From NCBI RefSeq assembly GCF_964020035.1, contig NZ_OZ026475.1, positions 372,001-436,000 on the forward strand: a stretch of 64,000 nt of DNA, given 5' to 3'. Made by a program: the position numbers and the translations under genes. Below, one piece after another: positions 971 to 56,576 of this stretch (the first letter of the stretch is position 1; each line of letters begins with the position of its first letter). The notes below the pieces were generated by a model, which worked only from the letters and a program-made list of their open reading frames with translations, did not search any database and was not told where the DNA came from. The DNA is from Spiroplasma endosymbiont of Crioceris asparagi. Its GTDB lineage: Bacteria; Bacillota_I; Bacilli_A; Mycoplasmatales; Mycoplasmataceae.

Positions 971-2221
971 TAATGCTCAATAAATAGTAAAAAATAATAA
1001 ATAGTAAATAATTACTATTGGTAAACTAATTCATTTAATAAAAATACAGATATCAATTATACACATCAAGTGTGTTATCGAATTTGTTAATAAAAGTACT
1101 GGTCGGGATATATCAATCGGCAAAATTAATTGAATCATTGATAATATTCAAACAAACAATGAATATTGGTTTAAAAACATATAGTAAAATCAATCAAAAA
1201 TATGTCATTTATAATTTGAATAGATTTGAATTGGCGAAAATAATATTATTGATAACAAAATAATTCATAATCACTTAAAATGAATTTTATTTTTAGATGT
1301 AGTAAAAATAAAATATCCTAATATTGAATAAAAAAATGTATAAGTGATTAAAAAATATGGATAAAATAAATGGATTCCGAAATTGGACTTTAATATTTTT
1401 GTGTTTTTAAATTCAATTTTTTGCTTTATCATAAAATGAATTTTGTACATTAAATAAATAATTGTATTTTTATTAAAAAGTGAATAATAACAAATTAAAA
1501 TTAAACACAATATTTGTATTCATTTTCTTTGCTTACTATTTAATTTTAAAAATTTGCAAATTTTTTGATAAACAAAATCAAGAATTAATAATTTAAATAT
1601 ATTTACTTTAAAAATGTAAGCAGATGATATTGAATTAAGATTATCTTTTATTAAAAAATAATTTTTATCATTAAAAAATGTAAATTTAATTAAATCGTTG
1701 TTATACATTTTTAAAACTTGTCAAAAAAAGTACTGAGTTCCGCGATAAAAAAAACTAATGTTATTTGGTGTAATACTGCCAATAACCCCTTCTTCTTTAT
1801 AATAAAGATCAAATTCGGGAAGCATATTTTCTGGTTTGAAATTATAATCCCCTATTCAAATAAATTCTCCTAAACTTAAATTTTGATTTAAATCTGATTT
1901 ATTAATTCTAACTACACAATTAATAAACTTTAATAAATAATAAGAACTTGTTTCTTTGTAAACTTGAAATAGATGTAATTTAATGTAATTGAGATAAACA
2001 AATAAATAAAATAAATTTAAAAGAATAATTAAACTAACAAATATAAAATAAAATATATTTTTAAAAGCAATAATTAAACAAAAAAATATGCTGATAGCGT
2101 AAAAAATATATTGTTGATTAAGCATTAATAGTTCACTAATTAAAAATAAGGTAATTAAAACAAGTTCGACATTTTTAACAAATAATAAATGGTAATGCTT
2201 CTTTATAAAATTCTTTTTCAT
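962..2221 (-). CDS. comEC: ComEC/Rec2-like competence membrane protein, short form
   Basis: Predicted inner-membrane DNA-uptake channel. Read with UGA as Trp the frame is open for 419 residues (stop TAG at 962-964); under the standard code it breaks into several pieces. Order: two or three TM segments (about residues 10-70), a soluble stretch resembling the ComEC N-terminal OB-like region (about 75-150), then a Competence-domain-like multi-TM part. SNFGIHLF near residue 265 resembles the family's SGLH motif. The metallo-beta-lactamase domain of Bacillus-type ComEC (700+ residues) is absent. It overlaps the upstream comEA-like gene by 47 nt, and no clear RBS precedes ATG 2221, so coupling is likely. 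The call rests on topology, the soluble region and the comE-holA-rpsT context. Confidence 0.6.
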
Positions 2222-2741
2222 AAACCGATTTAAAAAGTTTTTTTATTTTTATATATATTTCATTAATGTTAATGTCGTATCTAGCGTAATAAGTAACAAT
2301 CTTTTCAGCTAAATCTGCACTTAAATTTTTAGACGTAAAATATTTTTTATTAAATTCAGAACTTGTTCGATAAATTTTAATTAGTGTATTTTCATCATTT
2401 GGCATCAAGAAAATAATGTGATCTTTTTTAATCTTTGTTAAAGATGTATAGTGAAAAAATTGATTTAAATATTTTATTGAGTCAACATCTTCAAACACAT
2501 CATCATAGGTTTTATATTTAATTTTAAAATTAATTGTTTTTGGCAAAAGATTATTTATTGTTGTTGATAAATTGAATTTAATTTTAAATTTTAAATTATC
2601 ATTAGGAATAATTTTTTTATCATCTGCTTTTTGTGAATTAGAATTATTCGAAGATGTTTTACTATCAAACCCAATAAATGTAGCTATGCCTAATGAAATT
2701 AAACAAACAATTATAAAAAAAATAAATTTTATAAACTTCAC
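2175..2741 (-). CDS. Membrane-anchored protein, possible ComEA
   Basis: 188 residues with a GTG start at 2739-2741 preceded by GAGGT. One TM anchor (about residues 4-24) is followed by a Ser/Asn/Lys-rich linker and an extracytoplasmic domain. The C-terminal stretch SADLAEKIVTYYARYDINI resembles a degenerate helix-hairpin-helix of ComEA (A-x2-I-x2-YR-x-N-G-x-F). Its place directly before comEC, overlapping it, is the main reason to suggest the DNA receptor ComEA. The typical GIG hairpins are not evident, so the role is inference; a plain lipoprotein-like surface protein is the alternative. Confidence 0.4.
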   Translation of the reverse strand: MKFIKFIFFIIVCLISLGIATFIGFDSKTSSNNSNSQKADDKKIIPNDNLKFKIKFNLSTTINNLLPKTINFKIKYKTYDDVFEDVDSIKYLNQFFHYTSLTKIKKDHIIFLMPNDENTLIKIYRTSSEFNKKYFTSKNLSADLAEKIVTYYARYDININEIYIKIKKLFKSVYEKEFYKEALPFIIC

Positions 2742-5701: not shown

Positions 5702-5718
5702 CTTTTTAATTAAATATG

Positions 5719-5785
5719 AAAATTTATATAAGTTGATATATTGGATCGACGTTTCTACCTTGCACCTATGCATGTCTATAAATTC
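5719..5785 (+). promoter_or_regulatory. Purine riboswitch, guanine-like core with unusual P3/L3
   Basis: P1 AATTTATA (5721-5728) pairs with TATAAATT (5777-5784). J1/2 is UAA. P2 is GTTGAT/ATCGAC (5732-5737, 5745-5750). L2 is ATATTGG, and J2/3 is the canonical GUUUCUACC (5751-5759). P3 is short, with a U-U mismatch and a 4-nt loop CCTA instead of the usual 7-nt L3; its CC can still pair with the GG of L2. The ligand-specifying position 74 is C (guanine/hypoxanthine class), but the usually conserved A73 appears to be U. It precedes a purine permease. No terminator hairpin follows, so control may act on translation. Confidence 0.85.
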
Positions 5786-5823
5786 TACTTGTATTGTTTT
5801 CTATTTAATATTTTAGGAGAAAA

Positions 5824-49007: not shown

Positions 49008-49773
49008 CTAATCCTTTATAATCATTTTTAATATCATTTCTTTGTTTTAGATATTCTTTATAACTCATTTTTTTTAAAACTGGAATTGGATATCATTTTT
49101 GATTTTCATAATATTTTTTTACATCTAATAATTTTGTATTCATTTCTAAATGCTGTGCATATTTTTCTGGTGAATATTTTTTTGCAGAATATTCTTTAGC
49201 AGCTTCAATAAGAGATAATATAATCAAAATCATTAGAAAAATAACTCCAACATATACAAAAACATCCGCAAGATTAAATGAATAAAGTCGTAAATTTGGG
49301 AAGATATTCATAAAGGTTCCTCATGCAATAAAATCAATCACACTTCCACCGGCAAATGCTCTACCCAAAGTGTTTCCCATGCTTCCGCCAATCATTAAAG
49401 AAAAAGCAATTAGCATTGATGTTTGATTCACAAATATAAACGCAATTAAAATACAAATTGTGGTTATTACCGCAATTGTAATCGCCTTTGATGACTCATC
49501 CGCTCACATTCCTTTAGCTGATCCTGAATTTAATAAATAGTTTCAATTTATAAATCAGTTAATAAAGTTTTTTTCACCAGCATTTTGTAAACTATGTTTA
49601 GCCCATAGTTTTGTAATTATATCTATAAAAATTAAAATTATGATTAAGGGAAATAATACTCTTAATTTAAAATTAAATCTATAATAGTTTTTTTTAAGAT
49701 AAAAAACAGAATTTTTAACAATGGGATTAATTTTATTTTTTATTTTTTCAAAATAATTTTTATTTTTATTCAT
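48991..49773 (-). CDS. lspA: Lipoprotein signal peptidase (SPase II)
   Basis: 260 residues, longer than usual 150-170 because of a basic N-terminal arm (about 40) and a C-terminal cytoplasmic tail (about 60). Four TM helices. Conserved: IDIITKLWA, catalytic Asp in GGSVIDFIAW, and FNLADVFV with the second catalytic Asp; GGSMGNTLGR also matches. Cleaves prolipoproteins. Overlaps ileS by 8 nt and rluD by 17 nt. Confidence 0.95.
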
Positions 49774-52471
49774 TTAAATTTTTAACCACACTTTCACAAC
49801 GCATACAAATAGAATCATTATTTAAAATGTCAAAAATTGCTCAGCATCTTTCACATTTCAAACCATTTTTTGGTTCTATTTCAATTTTTATTTCATTTTG
49901 ATTATCTAAAAAAATGATTGAATTTACAATTAAAATTTGGTTTAAACTTTCGATATCTTTTATAAAATTAAATTCATCAGAAAGATTAACTTTTAATGAT
50001 GCTTCAAATCCTTTTCTAATTATTTTATCTTGTCTAGCACTTTCTAACGCAACGTTGACTAAATCTCTAAATTTAAGAAATTTATTTCACTTTTCAACAA
50101 ATTTATCTTTTTGTTTAAAATCTTGTTTTCTTAAATCTAATAAGTGAACTGATTTTTCTTTTTGAATAAATAAAATGTTTTTATAAACTTCTTCAGTTGT
50201 ATGAGGAATAATTGGTTTTAAAACATCAATTAACATTCATAATTGTTCATACATAACTGTTTGTACTTGTCTTCTTCTTAAAGAGTCAGCATTTTCTACA
50301 TATAAAATATCTTTTATAAAATCTAAATAGAATGATGATAAATCATTAATCACATAATTATTAATCAACTTATATGCATTATTAAATGAGTATGTCTCAA
50401 ATGCATCAGCAATTTTTTCTTTAGTTAAAGTTAAATTATTTAAAGCAAATTCATCAACTTCTAATAATGTTTTTTGATAATGTTTATTTGGATCAAAATC
50501 AAATAAGTTAGATATTAAAAATCTCAATGTGTTTCTAATTTTTCTATATGATTCTCCAACTTGTTTTAAAATATTATCACCAATTCTTTGATCATCGGTG
50601 TAATCTGTTGAACATACTCATAATCTTAAAATGTCTGCCCCTTGTAAATCACAAATTTTTAATGGGTCAATTGTATTGCCAATTGATTTAGACATTTTTT
50701 TACCTTTTTCATCATTTGTCATTCCATGAGTAATTAAAAATTTATATGCAACTGTTTCATCATAAATAATTGAATTAATCATTGATGAGTTAAATCATCC
50801 ACGGTATTGATCATTACCTTCTAAATACACATCAAAAGGCGCCTCATAACCATAAACTTCTCTCATCACAATATTTGAAGCACCAGAATCAAATCAAACA
50901 TCTAAAATATCTGTTTCTTTTTTAAATTCTTGACCTTTAAATTTTGAAGGTAAAAAATTGTCACATGGTTCAACAAATCAAGCATTAGTCCCTTTTTGCT
51001 CAATGATAGATATTGCATAGTTAATAATTTCTGCATTCATAACTGGTTGATTGTTTTTATCGAAAAAAGCAACAATTGGCACTCCCCATAGTCTTTGACG
51101 AGAAATTGTTCAATCATTTCTTTCTTTAATAATGTTTCTTAATCTTTCTTTTGATCAAGCCGGTTTAGTTTCTACATTTTTAAGAATTTTTTTATCGATG
51201 ATAGTCTTAATTTTTTCAATATTTACAAATCATTGATTTGTTGCACGATAAATAACTGGTTTTTTACTTCTTCAATCATGAGGATAAGAGTGTTTTAAAA
51301 ATTCTAATTTTAATAAATTACCTTTTTCTTTTAAAGTTATACCCACAATTTTATTTGAATCTTCATAAAAAATACCTTCTAATTTAGAATCATTGATTTC
51401 TTTAGTAAATTTACCTTGATCATCAATTGGCACAAATGGTTTTATATTATTTTCTTTAACTATTTTAAAATCGTCTTCTCCAAAACCACCAGCAATATGA
51501 ACCATTCCAGTTCCAGTTATATCAGTTACATGATGACCTAAAACAACTTTTCCCTTTTTATCAGTAAATCATGGATGAAAATATTCTTTTCCTAATAAAT
51601 CATGATGCTTAATTTTTCCTTTAATATCATATTTTTCTCAACCAAATTTAACTGCTGCACTTTCTAATAAATTTTCAGCAATTACATAGTCTTCATTAGA
51701 ATTTTGTGGTCTAACTTTGATATATTCAATTTTTTCTGAAATAGCAACTAGTTGATTTGAAGGAATTGTTCAAGGTGTTGTAGTTCAAATAATTAAATTT
51801 AAATTATCTTCTCCAATAACTTTTAAAGACACATAAATCGAAGCACTTCTAACATCTTGATATTCAATTTCAGCTTCTGCTAATGCTGATTCTAAAGTCG
51901 GTGATCAATATACTGGTTTAAAATCACGATATACTAAATTTTTTTCTACCATTTTGGCATATAGTTTTAATTGCGCAACTTCATAATTATGGTTTAATGT
52001 TAAATATTTTTTTTCATAATCTGTAAAAATTCCAAGTCTTTTAAATTGCTCAGTTTGAATATTTACTTGTTCTAAGGCATATTCTTTACACAATGTTCTA
52101 AATTCATCTGGTGATAAATCTTTTCTATTAATACCTTTTGTTTTGATTATTGCTGACTCTATTGGTAAACCATGAGTATCTCAACCCATAATATATTCTG
52201 AATTATATCCATTACTAAATTTTCATCTTACAATAAAGTCTTTTAAAATTTTATTTAACGCATGACCAACATGAATATTTCCATTAGCATATGGTGGACC
52301 ATCATGCAAAATAAATTTTTTATTCTTTTTGTTTTTTGCTAATTTAGTTTTATAAATATCGTTTAATAATCACTCTTTTTGATAATCAACCTCTTTAGTT
52401 TTTAAATTAGCTTTCATTTCAAAATCTGTTTTACCAATTAATAGTGTGTCTTTATAAGATTTCTTTTCCAT
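49766..52471 (-). CDS. ileS: Isoleucyl-tRNA synthetase
   Basis: 901 residues, normal. HIGH motif in [13 protein letters not shown] (His67-His70), KMSKS near residue 592, editing domain between ([20 protein letters not shown]), and a C-terminal zinc knuckle CERCW...CMRCE. Many UGA-Trp codons. RBS AAGGAG lies inside the upstream small gene, which overlaps ileS by 20 nt. T-box leader further up controls both. Confidence 0.98.
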
Positions 52472-52829
52472 TTTGAACTCCTTTTTTAAATTTATGCAAT
52501 TTTACAAAATAAACAATAAAACTCATTATTCAAATTACCAATCAAATAATAAGTGGTATTAAGATTACAAAATCAGTTAATTGAACATTTTGATCTTCAT
52601 CCATACCAGTTGTAAATAATAAAGCAATTGAGACGACTAGTGAAAGCACACCCGTAACTCCAATAATTCATCAAATCATTGAATCCATTTTTTTAAAAAA
52701 TTGATAACATTGTTGATGCATTTTTACTTTAGCTCTATTAAAAATTCCAGCAGATGGTTTTTTAGCTACTATTAATTCTTTTTCATTTAATATTTCTGTG
52801 TAGCATAATACACATTTAATTTTTTCCAT
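52452..52829 (-). CDS. Small membrane protein with N-terminal CxxC motif, before ileS
   Basis: Not recognised. 125 residues: MEKIKCVLCYTEI with C-x2-C, later KKPSAGIF and a third Cys in MHQQCYQF, then two TM helices (about 51-72 and 88-112) and a basic tail. It lies between the T-box and ileS and overlaps the ileS start by 20 nt, so it is under isoleucine T-box control. Layout and KKP-x-GI resemble the 88-residue protein at 34273-34539. Zinc binding is possible. Confidence 0.65.
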
Positions 52830-52848
52830 TTTGTCCCTTCAAAATAAA

Positions 52849-53015
52849 AACGCCCCTATAATAAAGGAGCGTTAACAACGCGGTACCATCCTTATTTACA
52901 ATAATTTATAATTGCCTTAATTAGAGTATTTACTTGTAAAAAAATAAGTGATAATTAATTATTTAGTTTACTAACTCACACCACCCGTTAGATCTCTGAA
53001 AAACTTTAATAATAA
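52849..53015 (-). promoter_or_regulatory. T-box leader of the ileS operon, specifier AUC (Ile)
   Basis: On the minus strand the T-box core AAGGATGGTACCGCG (core complement 52879-52888) is followed by terminator AACGCTCCT/AGGGGCGTT plus U run (52849-52873). GGTGG and AGAG elements lie at 52981-52998. AUC at 52950-52952, followed by A, sits 28 nt past GGTGG. It governs the small CxxC gene, ileS, lspA, rluD, pnuC and pncA, unless internal promoters exist. Confidence 0.92.
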
Positions 53016-53129
53016 TTGTGTCTTATTTATACAATATATATTATCAAATTTGCCATAATAGTTAAACACATTTTCATGTTTTATTAACTAAAATATTGTT
53101 ATAAAATAATTTTAGAGAGGTGGATTTAA

Positions 53130-53246
53130 ATGGAAGACAAAAAAACATGCGAATGCTGTTCAAAAGAAACATGCAAAGATCAAAAACAATGTTGTTCAGA
53201 TTCAAATAAATGTAAAACAAAAGAATGTGACAAGTGTAACTGTTAG
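53130..53246 (+). CDS. Metallothionein-like Cys-rich peptide
   Basis: Only 38 residues, with 10 cysteines (7, 9, 10, 15, 21, 22, 28, 33, 36, 38) in CxCC, CC and CxxCxC patterns; the rest is Lys, Asp, Glu, Gln, Thr and Ser, with no hydrophobic residue after Met1. That is the composition of metallothioneins, so binding of Zn, Cu or Cd is inferred. GAGAGGTGG (53115-53123) gives a strong RBS 6 nt before ATG, and a terminator hairpin follows at once, both signs of a real gene. It is the only plus-strand gene between 33.1 and 64 kb. No known family was recognised. Confidence 0.7.
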   Translation: MEDKKTCECCSKETCKDQKQCCSDSNKCKTKECDKCNC

Positions 53247-53248
53247 AT

Positions 53249-53281
53249 AATAAAAACCTTGGTTAATTCAAGGTTTTTATT
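53249..53281. terminator. Bidirectional terminator, Cys-rich gene and mtnN
   Basis: AATAAAAACCTTG (53249-53261), 7-nt loop, CAAGGTTTTTATT (53269-53281): a perfect 13-bp stem with T runs on both sides. It overlaps the mtnN stop codon. Confidence 0.9.
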
Positions 53282-53898
53282 ATCTCTGAAATTTTATTAC
53301 TTGAAAATTCTTTAACTTCTAAAAATTGCTTCTCATTAGATTTAGAACCTAGAATATCACTAACTATTTTTATTGCATTAATTTCTTTTTTTAATCGGAA
53401 TGCTGCTTGTGCAAAACCAGCTAGTTCCATATCAAATAATTCAATATTTGGTTCAATTGGTTTAACTATTGAATTATATTTATCAAAACCATTAATAAAA
53501 ACATCACTTGAACAAATATTAGCTGTGTTATATTCGTTTTTAATACCTTTAAGGGTATAGAAAGCGGGCATTTGAGGAACTTGTCCCATTTTATAACCAA
53601 ACCCTGTAGCATCAACATTACCAAGATAAACATTTTTAATGTTTAAAATATCTTTTATGTTTAAAACATTTGAATTACATCCAACCATTCCAAAGTTAAT
53701 ATATTCTGATATTTCATAATTAGAATCAACTCATGTTAATGCGCTTCCTGCATTAACTAACCCTATTTGAGAAATTAATAGAAAAAATTGATCATTTTCA
53801 TACACTTCGTATGGTTGCTTTTGAATTAATTTAAATTGGTGTTCTTTAATTGTGTGTGCTGCTTCATCAAACATTGCAAATAACAAACATTTTTTCAT
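53263..53898 (-). CDS. mtnN: 5'-methylthioadenosine/S-adenosylhomocysteine nucleosidase
   Basis: 211 residues. Nucleosidase fold: start CLLFAMFDEAA (catalytic base region), LVNAGSALT, GYKMGQVPQMP, the purine/ribose-binding LFDMELAGFAQAAF (MEMEGAA-like) and KIVSDILGS with the catalytic Asp. It clears MTA and SAH by releasing adenine. ATG 53898 shares one base with the mgtA stop (TAATG), so it is translated after it. Confidence 0.92.
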
Positions 53899-56576
53899 TA
53901 TAATCATTCCTTAAATATTTTGATATATGCCATTTTAACTACTTGTGCCAATAATACATACCCTATTCCAAAACCGATGGCAATTGGAATGAAATAATAA
54001 GATGGTCTTTCCATTTTGATGTATTTACTTACATTAGTGTATGGTAATAAAAATGCCATTAAAATAATAAATATTGAAGAAAGTAAAACTATCATTGCTG
54101 GTTTAGAATTAATAAATGGAATTTTTTGTGTTCTATAAACTTGCACAATTGCTGTTTGGGTTAATAAACCAACAATAAATCATGATGCATTAAATTGAGC
54201 AATATCAAAATCAGATGGTGCATTACCTTGACCAATTTTAAAGATAAATAACAAAGTAACAAAAGTTAAAACATCAAATATTGAACTCACTGAACCATTT
54301 ATAGCTGCAAATTTAATCAAGTTATTTGATTTCAATTTTTGCGGTTTTTGTAAATATTCATAGTCAACTTTGTCAACAATTAAAGCAAATTGAGTAATGT
54401 CATATAATAAATTTTGAATTAATAAATGAATTGGTTGCATTGGATTAAAACTTAAAATAAATAGAGCAATTAAAATACTTAAAACATTACCAAAATTTGA
54501 AGCAATTGTTACTTTAATATATTTAAGCATATTAGCCAAACATGACCTTCCCTTAATAACACCATCTTCTAGTACCATTAAGTTATCTTCCATCAAAATA
54601 ACATCTGCAGCATCTTGAGCAATATTAGAGGCATCTGCAAAAGAAATTGCGACATCTGATGCCCTTAATACAGGAGCATCATTAATTCCATCTCCCATAA
54701 ATCCAACAACGTGACCTAAACCTTTTAATGTATTAATAATTCTCGCTTTATGCAATGGTGATAATTTAACAAAGACATTTGCACGCATAACAATTCTTTC
54801 TAAATCAAAATCATCCATTCGATCAATTTCAACACCAGTAACTAAACTTGTAATTTTAAAATCAACTTTATTACAAATAGCTTTTGTAATAATTTCATTG
54901 TCCCCTGTTAAAATTTTGGTTTCGACACCAAGAGTTGCTAATCTACGAATAATTTTTTTTGAAGTGGTTTTAGGTTCATCAAAAAATGAGCCAAAACCAT
55001 AGAACACCATTTCTTCTTCAATATCATCATCATCAACAAGTTTATGTGCAATACCAATAACACGATAACCTTCTAAACTTTTTTTTATGTATGTGTCATG
55101 AATATCTTGTTTAACTTTATCATTTAATTCTTCAACAGTTTTACCATTAAAAAACTTTGTACATAATTTAAGTACTTCTTCAACGGCACCTTTTGTAACA
55201 CATTGTTTTTGGTTATCTTTTTCATAAATAACTGATAAAATTTTTCTTTCAAAATTAAAAGGAATTTCTCATGATTTTTTATATTCTAATATTTTTGGTC
55301 TTGATATTGTTTCAGATGCTAATACTGCATTATCAATTGGATTTGTAAACCCTGTTTGAAAGTATGAATTAAAATATAATAATTCTTCAATATAAATATT
55401 TTTAACTCCTCTAATGTCACAAACATCACTTAAATTTATTTCACCACTAGTAATTGTTCCCGTTTTGTCTGAACATAAAATATCAATTGCTCCTAAATTT
55501 TGAACAGCATTTAAATTTTTAACAATTACATTTTTGTTTTTTATTTTTTTATAACAATATGAAAGATTAGCTGTCACAATCATTGGCAACATTTCGGGAG
55601 TAATTCCAACAGCAATCGCAATTGCATAAATTGTTGCATTAATTCATGGTTTGTCCTTATGGTTTATTAAATCCAATTTTAGTCCTTGAGCAATTAGCAC
55701 AAATGGAATAACAACCAACATAAATAAAATGATAATTAATGTAATTTTTTTAATACCTTTTTCAAATGAAGAAGGTTCTCTTTTCTCTTTTGTTTTTGAA
55801 GAAATAGTTGCAAAATATGTATTTTGACCAGTTGAGACAACTATGGCAATTGCACTTCCTGAAGTTACAGTTGTTCCCATATAACAAACATCTTCAAATT
55901 CTAAATAATTTTCTTGCTTATTAGTTGATTTTTTACTTACAGGAAATGATTCTCCTGTTAAAGAAGCTTGGTCTACATATAAATTATTTGATCATAAAAT
56001 TTTTACATCAGCTGGAATAATATCACCATTTGAAAGATATACAACATCACCAATAACTAAATCACTTTTATCAATTTTCTGGGATTCTCTTACAAAAATT
56101 ACTGAGTTTGAATTTGTAATACTTGCTAATTTTGTTTCTGGATTTCTAATAACCTTTGTATATTGAATATTATCAAAAAACATTTTCTTCATAACAATAT
56201 GGGATTTAACTTCTTGAAAAAAACCAATTGATCCAGACAAAACTATCATAGTAAGAATTATTAGTGCCCCCACTAAATCCACAATATCTCGTTCTTCGGG
56301 TGCTCCTTTAAAATATTCATAAAAACTATAAATATTAATAAATGTTAAAATTAAATTAAATGGCCCAAAAAAAGTTTTTAAAAATACCATAAAAAAATTA
56401 AATCTTTTTTCTTTAATTTCATTATCACCGTATTTTTCTTTTATGTCGAAGACTTGTTTTGAATTTAAACCAAAATTCTCAAGATTAAATTCTTTAAGAA
56501 TTTGTGCTTGAGATAAGTTTGTGTATTTTATAGGACCTTCCGGAACAATTATTTTACGTTTGGTTTTTTTAAACAT
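53898..56576 (-). CDS. mgtA: Mg2+-importing P-type ATPase (MgtA type, P3B)
   Basis: 892 residues. The M4 motif GITPEMLPMIVTANL is diagnostic for MgtA/MgtB. Phosphorylation site DKTGTIT (Asp370), TGES actuator motif, KILTGDN and VVGFMGDGINDAPVL hinge motifs; C-terminal M5-M10. Cytoplasmic N-terminus starts basic (MFKKTKRK). Under the standard code it would be split by six or more UGA codons. It differs in class from the Ca2+-like pump at 7957-10686. Confidence 0.94.

Follow-up and report, generated by a model that had tools for sequence, protein, structure and literature searches.

Known bacterial metallothioneins are of two sorts: SmtA-type proteins, in which a GATA-like zinc-finger fold is combined with His ligands and hydrophobic residues, and a separate copper type, MymT (PMC10612145, PMC7387436), the motif of which is found in no other bacterial metallothionein (PMC10612145). 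In the literature searched, we found no mollicute metallothionein. Here, we analyzed a Cys-rich peptide encoded in a 64,000-nucleotide stretch of DNA (hereafter, the window) from the Spiroplasma endosymbiont of Crioceris asparagi. This peptide shares with SmtA and BmtA a small size, richness in Cys, a predicted cytosolic location in a bacterium and a proposed role in Zn, Cd or Cu buffering; however, it is only 38 aa long and has no His and no hydrophobic zinc-finger core. The metallothionein profile PF02069 did not match it, nor did this profile have any match at E<=1 in the whole genome. MymT, the mycobacterial copper metallothionein, is likewise a small, Cys-rich bacterial protein unrelated to SmtA, but it is longer and contains His. 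The short fungal copper thioneins of the Neurospora type, i.e., very short, His-free proteins in which Cys residues are the only ligands, resemble the window peptide by description, but they are dominated by CxC and rich in Ser and Gly. In composition, the window peptide agrees with the metallothionein functional class (small and Cys-rich, with CxC, CxxC and CC motifs and few hydrophobic residues). Judged by these features, it probably works like a metallothionein, yet outside the SmtA family. It should be noted that another mollicute genome (G004, contig L234, positions 1474-1608, minus strand) encodes a peptide, MNETSCTHCGVSMHPDEVVMVNDKPYCCQACARADGQVN, with a sub-threshold match to PF02069 and the look of an SmtA-type zinc finger; it does not match the window peptide.

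The locus contains the following features, in window coordinates:

49766 to 52471, minus strand: ileS (TIGR00392, 872 bits)
52452 to 52829, minus strand: 125-aa membrane ORF with CxxC...HxxxC, the first gene behind the T-box
52862 to 53033, minus strand: T-box leader of the divergent unit (Rfam RF00230, E = 5.9e-11)
53097 to 53105, plus strand: probable extended -10 element, TGTTATAAA, identified by eye, 25-33 bases before the ATG
53114 to 53123, plus strand: Shine-Dalgarno (SD) site, agagaggtgg
53130 to 53246, plus strand: coding sequence of the 38-aa, 10-Cys peptide, MEDKKTCECCSKETCKDQKQCCSDSNKCKTKECDKCNC
53245 to 53285, no strand assigned: terminator hairpin, probably shared and bidirectional (18 pairs, 5-nt loop, flanked by an A-run and a T-run)
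53263 to 53907, minus strand: mtnN-like MTA/SAH nucleosidase (MTA/SAH nucleosidase models, E 4e-30)
53898 to 56576, minus strand: mgtA, P3B magnesium ATPase (TIGR01524, 816 bits)

An earlier note on this DNA had described the peptide gene as a ten-Cys ORF of 38 residues, non-hydrophobic after Met1, with its own strong ribosome-binding site and a tight terminator, and the sequence and its translation bear out this description. Cys makes up 10 of the 38 residues (26%), arranged in CxCC, CC and CxxCxC clusters; the filler consists of Lys, Asp and Glu, there are no hydrophobic residues after Met1, and Gly, Pro and aromatic residues are absent, as is His. The peptide carries no export signal. The window was shuffled 1999 times with its dinucleotide composition preserved, and in the resulting 128 Mb not a single ORF reached 10 or more Cys at the Cys density of the window peptide; the densest shuffled ORFs, with 9 Cys in 38-40 aa, were hydrophobic. 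The SD site forms a duplex of -11.9 kcal/mol with the anti-SD sequence, a value equalled by only 0.17% of the 2356 ATGs of the window. The hairpin that follows has a folding energy of -21.2 kcal/mol (z = -8.6), although it was missed by a simple scan for terminators. The stop codon of the peptide gene extends into one arm of this hairpin while the mtnN stop codon sits in the loop, so that a single hairpin probably serves both genes. The likely extended -10 was not picked up by a sigma-70 scan; its placement would leave a leader of ~20 nt, into which a riboswitch or another metal-sensing RNA would not fit. Taken together, the shuffle null, the SD site and the hairpin at the stop codon support a real gene, and we conclude that this small-genome relative of spiroplasmas has a free-standing gene predicted to be translated into the 38-aa peptide.

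The neighborhood is less informative. The peptide gene indeed lies tail-to-tail with the mtnN-mgtA pair, as previously proposed. The head-to-head arrangement with an ileS T-box unit holds for the T-box, whereas the 125-aa membrane ORF intervenes before ileS, the order of the divergent unit being T-box, membrane ORF, ileS, lspA. The T-box match, at 54 bits, does not reach the gathering score (93), and relatives give only weak matches to the membrane ORF. Elsewhere in the window, a purine riboswitch (RF00167, positions 5704-5798) exceeds its gathering score. Neither a metalloregulator gene nor a riboswitch adjoins the peptide gene; in particular, the place of the divergent SmtB gene found at some cyanobacterial SmtA loci is taken here by the T-box unit. 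Pseudomonas metallothioneins likewise lack a divergent SmtB (PMC7387436). In Spiroplasma sp. TIUS-1, the mgtA-mtnN pair is kept and ileS is 53 kb off, and in genus g11 the distance between mtnN and ileS is about 60 kb, whereas in the window genome the two adjoin (52452-53907). The peptide gene therefore lies at a rearrangement junction, and its neighbors say little about its function. Inheritance of the mtnN adjacency as synteny is also unsupported, given this separation and the different orientation: Cys-rich peptide genes are co-directional with mtnN in g11, and the window gene is inverted.

The expectation that the Cys pattern would be conserved in related Mollicutes failed for the exact pattern. 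Searches of genomes sampled at the species level, 99 from the order and 392 from the phylum, and of plasmids gave no homologue of the window peptide; the peptide had no match in Pfam, NCBIfam or PDB, and in its own genome it matched only itself. One match at E 0.03 among the order genomes was rejected, as it has TAG inside. Analogous peptides, however, exist. Spiroplasma sp. TIUS-1, the sole same-genus relative in our genome set (support 100/100 in the IleS tree), encodes a 28-aa, 8-Cys peptide, MIRSNSKCKCENCTCTNCTCAAPQEGCC, next to a ribonuclease J-like gene, and this standalone gene, with its own SD and terminator, has the same monocistronic anatomy as the window gene. The Cys pattern of the TIUS-1 peptide, CKCENCTCTNCTC...CC, is nevertheless unlike that of the window peptide, and their pairwise alignment is no better than those of shuffled sequences. 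The TIUS-1 gene was found through the CxxCxC codon pattern, not through homology, which means that unrelated Cys-rich peptides may also occur in genomes that we counted as devoid of them; in TIUS-1 and in the window genome, the search for Cys-rich ORFs covered matches to the codon pattern and the surroundings of selected matches.

When the DNA next to mtnN was scanned, a previously undescribed family of 8-Cys peptides (consensus MECNKDCKDCNCxCxxDDNCxECQMCxxDxNHG) emerged directly 3' of this gene in g11, and profile searches extended the family to 13 genomes other than those of the window and TIUS-1. Most copies (nine) are linked to mtnN, two lie behind trmFO (G049 and G054), and the others are in G026 (genus g3) and G035 (genus g8), the latter being a weak profile match (E 0.36) in which the order of the Cys residues is preserved. 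The members are 29-41 aa long with at least 8 Cys, and one copy was found per genome. All 8 Cys are invariant across the 10 aligned sequences, with the core C-x3-C-x2-C-x-C-x-C-x5-C-x2-C-x2-C and a His in most members. Nearly every inspected copy has its own SD, and most have a terminator-like hairpin. Nearly all pairs that could be used have a lower dN (about 0.1) than dS. No Pfam or NCBIfam model matched these peptides above threshold. In G036 (contig L046, positions 1500-1563, minus strand), a genome that has a P1B heavy-metal ATPase, the copy is decayed: IECKLEDNCKDCGMCKNDKNHG lacks an ATG start and has lost an internal segment.

Like the window gene, the 8-Cys genes are short and Cys-rich, have their own SD and mostly their own terminator, and often lie beside mtnN; however, the window peptide has neither the fixed core nor the His. 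A search of the window genome for this family yielded no match, and the window peptide lacks the eight spaced Cys and the CKDC motif. Against the family profile, it reached 26.9 bits with the bias correction off, a score matched by half of 20,000 shuffled versions (0.50). In pairwise comparisons with the TIUS-1 peptide and five family members, the shuffle fractions were 0.18-0.91, versus 0.0002-0.001 for controls in which family members were compared with one another; even the best pair, the alignment with the G054 peptide (C-EKTCKD... / CSKETCKD...), was rejected at 0.18. Since shuffled versions score equally well, we rejected a grouping of the window peptide with the 8-Cys family or with the TIUS-1 peptide; these are separate sequences of one kind, the homology of which is neither demonstrable nor refuted. 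The kind of gene is conserved among relatives, though the exact peptide is not.

The reading of the peptide as metallothionein-like, proposed in the earlier note, falls short of the SmtA family, with no PF02069 match, no His and no zinc-finger core, and stands as the best available interpretation because of the composition, the Cys clusters, the separate cistron, the parallel mini-genes in relatives and the lack of a detected P1B exporter. We assign a probability of about 0.6 to a real gene, transcribed on its own, the product of which is a small, thiol-rich peptide of the cytosol that would fold into a metal cluster and lower free metal without a P1B exporter. Under this model, the peptide would fold only around metal, i.e., Cu(I), Zn(II) or Cd(II), to form one metal-thiolate cluster, and would act in a cytosol where no P1B-type exporter was detected. 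On sequence grounds, metal binding is probable, and the choice of metals and the buffering role are inferred. A Cys-rich composition would also fit a thiol redox buffer or cysteine store, i.e., a ribosomal product that stands in for low-molecular-weight thiols and undergoes disulfide cycling instead of binding metal. Mollicutes usually lack glutathione synthesis, and the position of most 8-Cys genes behind mtnN, which recycles S-adenosyl compounds, would suit sulfur metabolism. Nevertheless, the invariant Cys spacing of the 8-Cys family exceeds the needs of a thiol store, the conserved His that most members share points to a metal ligand, and in two cases the gene ahead is trmFO and not mtnN, which leaves this alternative rather unlikely.

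Less probable still is a structural zinc mini-protein or regulator, in which a small adaptor would hold one or two Zn and bind a partner protein or nucleic acid. The 8-Cys family does show sub-threshold similarity to zinc fingers (zf-CXXC, E 0.6; TET1 CXXC chain, E 0.28); the window peptide, however, has no hydrophobic core and no database match, its 10 Cys are more than one or two structural sites need, and the sequences in two species of the same genus are unrecognizably different. A short transcript with a terminator at its end could also represent a leader peptide, with the ORF serving as a Cys-sensing attenuator, or an RNA that is itself functional. Yet no same-strand gene follows, the terminator directly adjoins mtnN, which is convergent, Cys codons occur throughout the ORF, and the plus strand has no above-threshold Rfam match; we consider this explanation improbable. 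The least credible option is a spurious, functionless ORF: the exact sequence has no homologue in any genome searched, but its composition is unmatched in the 128 Mb of shuffles, its SD is in the top 0.17%, the terminator lies directly at the stop codon, and the sister species TIUS-1 has a Cys-rich mini-gene of its own.

Returning to the metallothionein-like reading, we compared the peptides with P1B heavy-metal ATPases, detected with the TIGR01525 profile. This search found no P1B ATPase in the window genome, TIUS-1, G026 or 10 of the 11 g11 genomes with an intact 8-Cys copy, and it found one in six of the nine g11 genomes that lack such a copy (p = 0.017 in a naive Fisher test on the g11 table of carriers versus P1B, with shared ancestry ignored). 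On the IleS tree, the association comes down to about 2-3 independent contrasts; those in favor are the nine-carrier clade versus its sister G036, which has the pump and only the decayed peptide copy, and G054 versus G033. There are exceptions to the complementarity: both genes are present in G049 and G035, and neither was found by our searches in G015, G043, G056 and G057. The apparent complementarity across spiroplasmas is a lead, not proof. A tentative and rather doubtful extension is that mini-metallothioneins which change fast and escape databases have repeatedly evolved or been retained in bacteria of the Spiroplasma group in place of P1B efflux, shifting metal handling in these reduced genomes from export to sequestration. 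Should the peptides bind metal, a layer of sequestration persists in reduced genomes, and the length cut-offs used in annotation may conceal it. In another genome (G011, contig L008, positions 2351-2659, minus strand), an ORF that looks like HxlR, MQVCPVEFSLSILKNKWTIFIIRELL..., is convergent to the Cys-rich peptide gene and is a possible thiol-sensing regulator.
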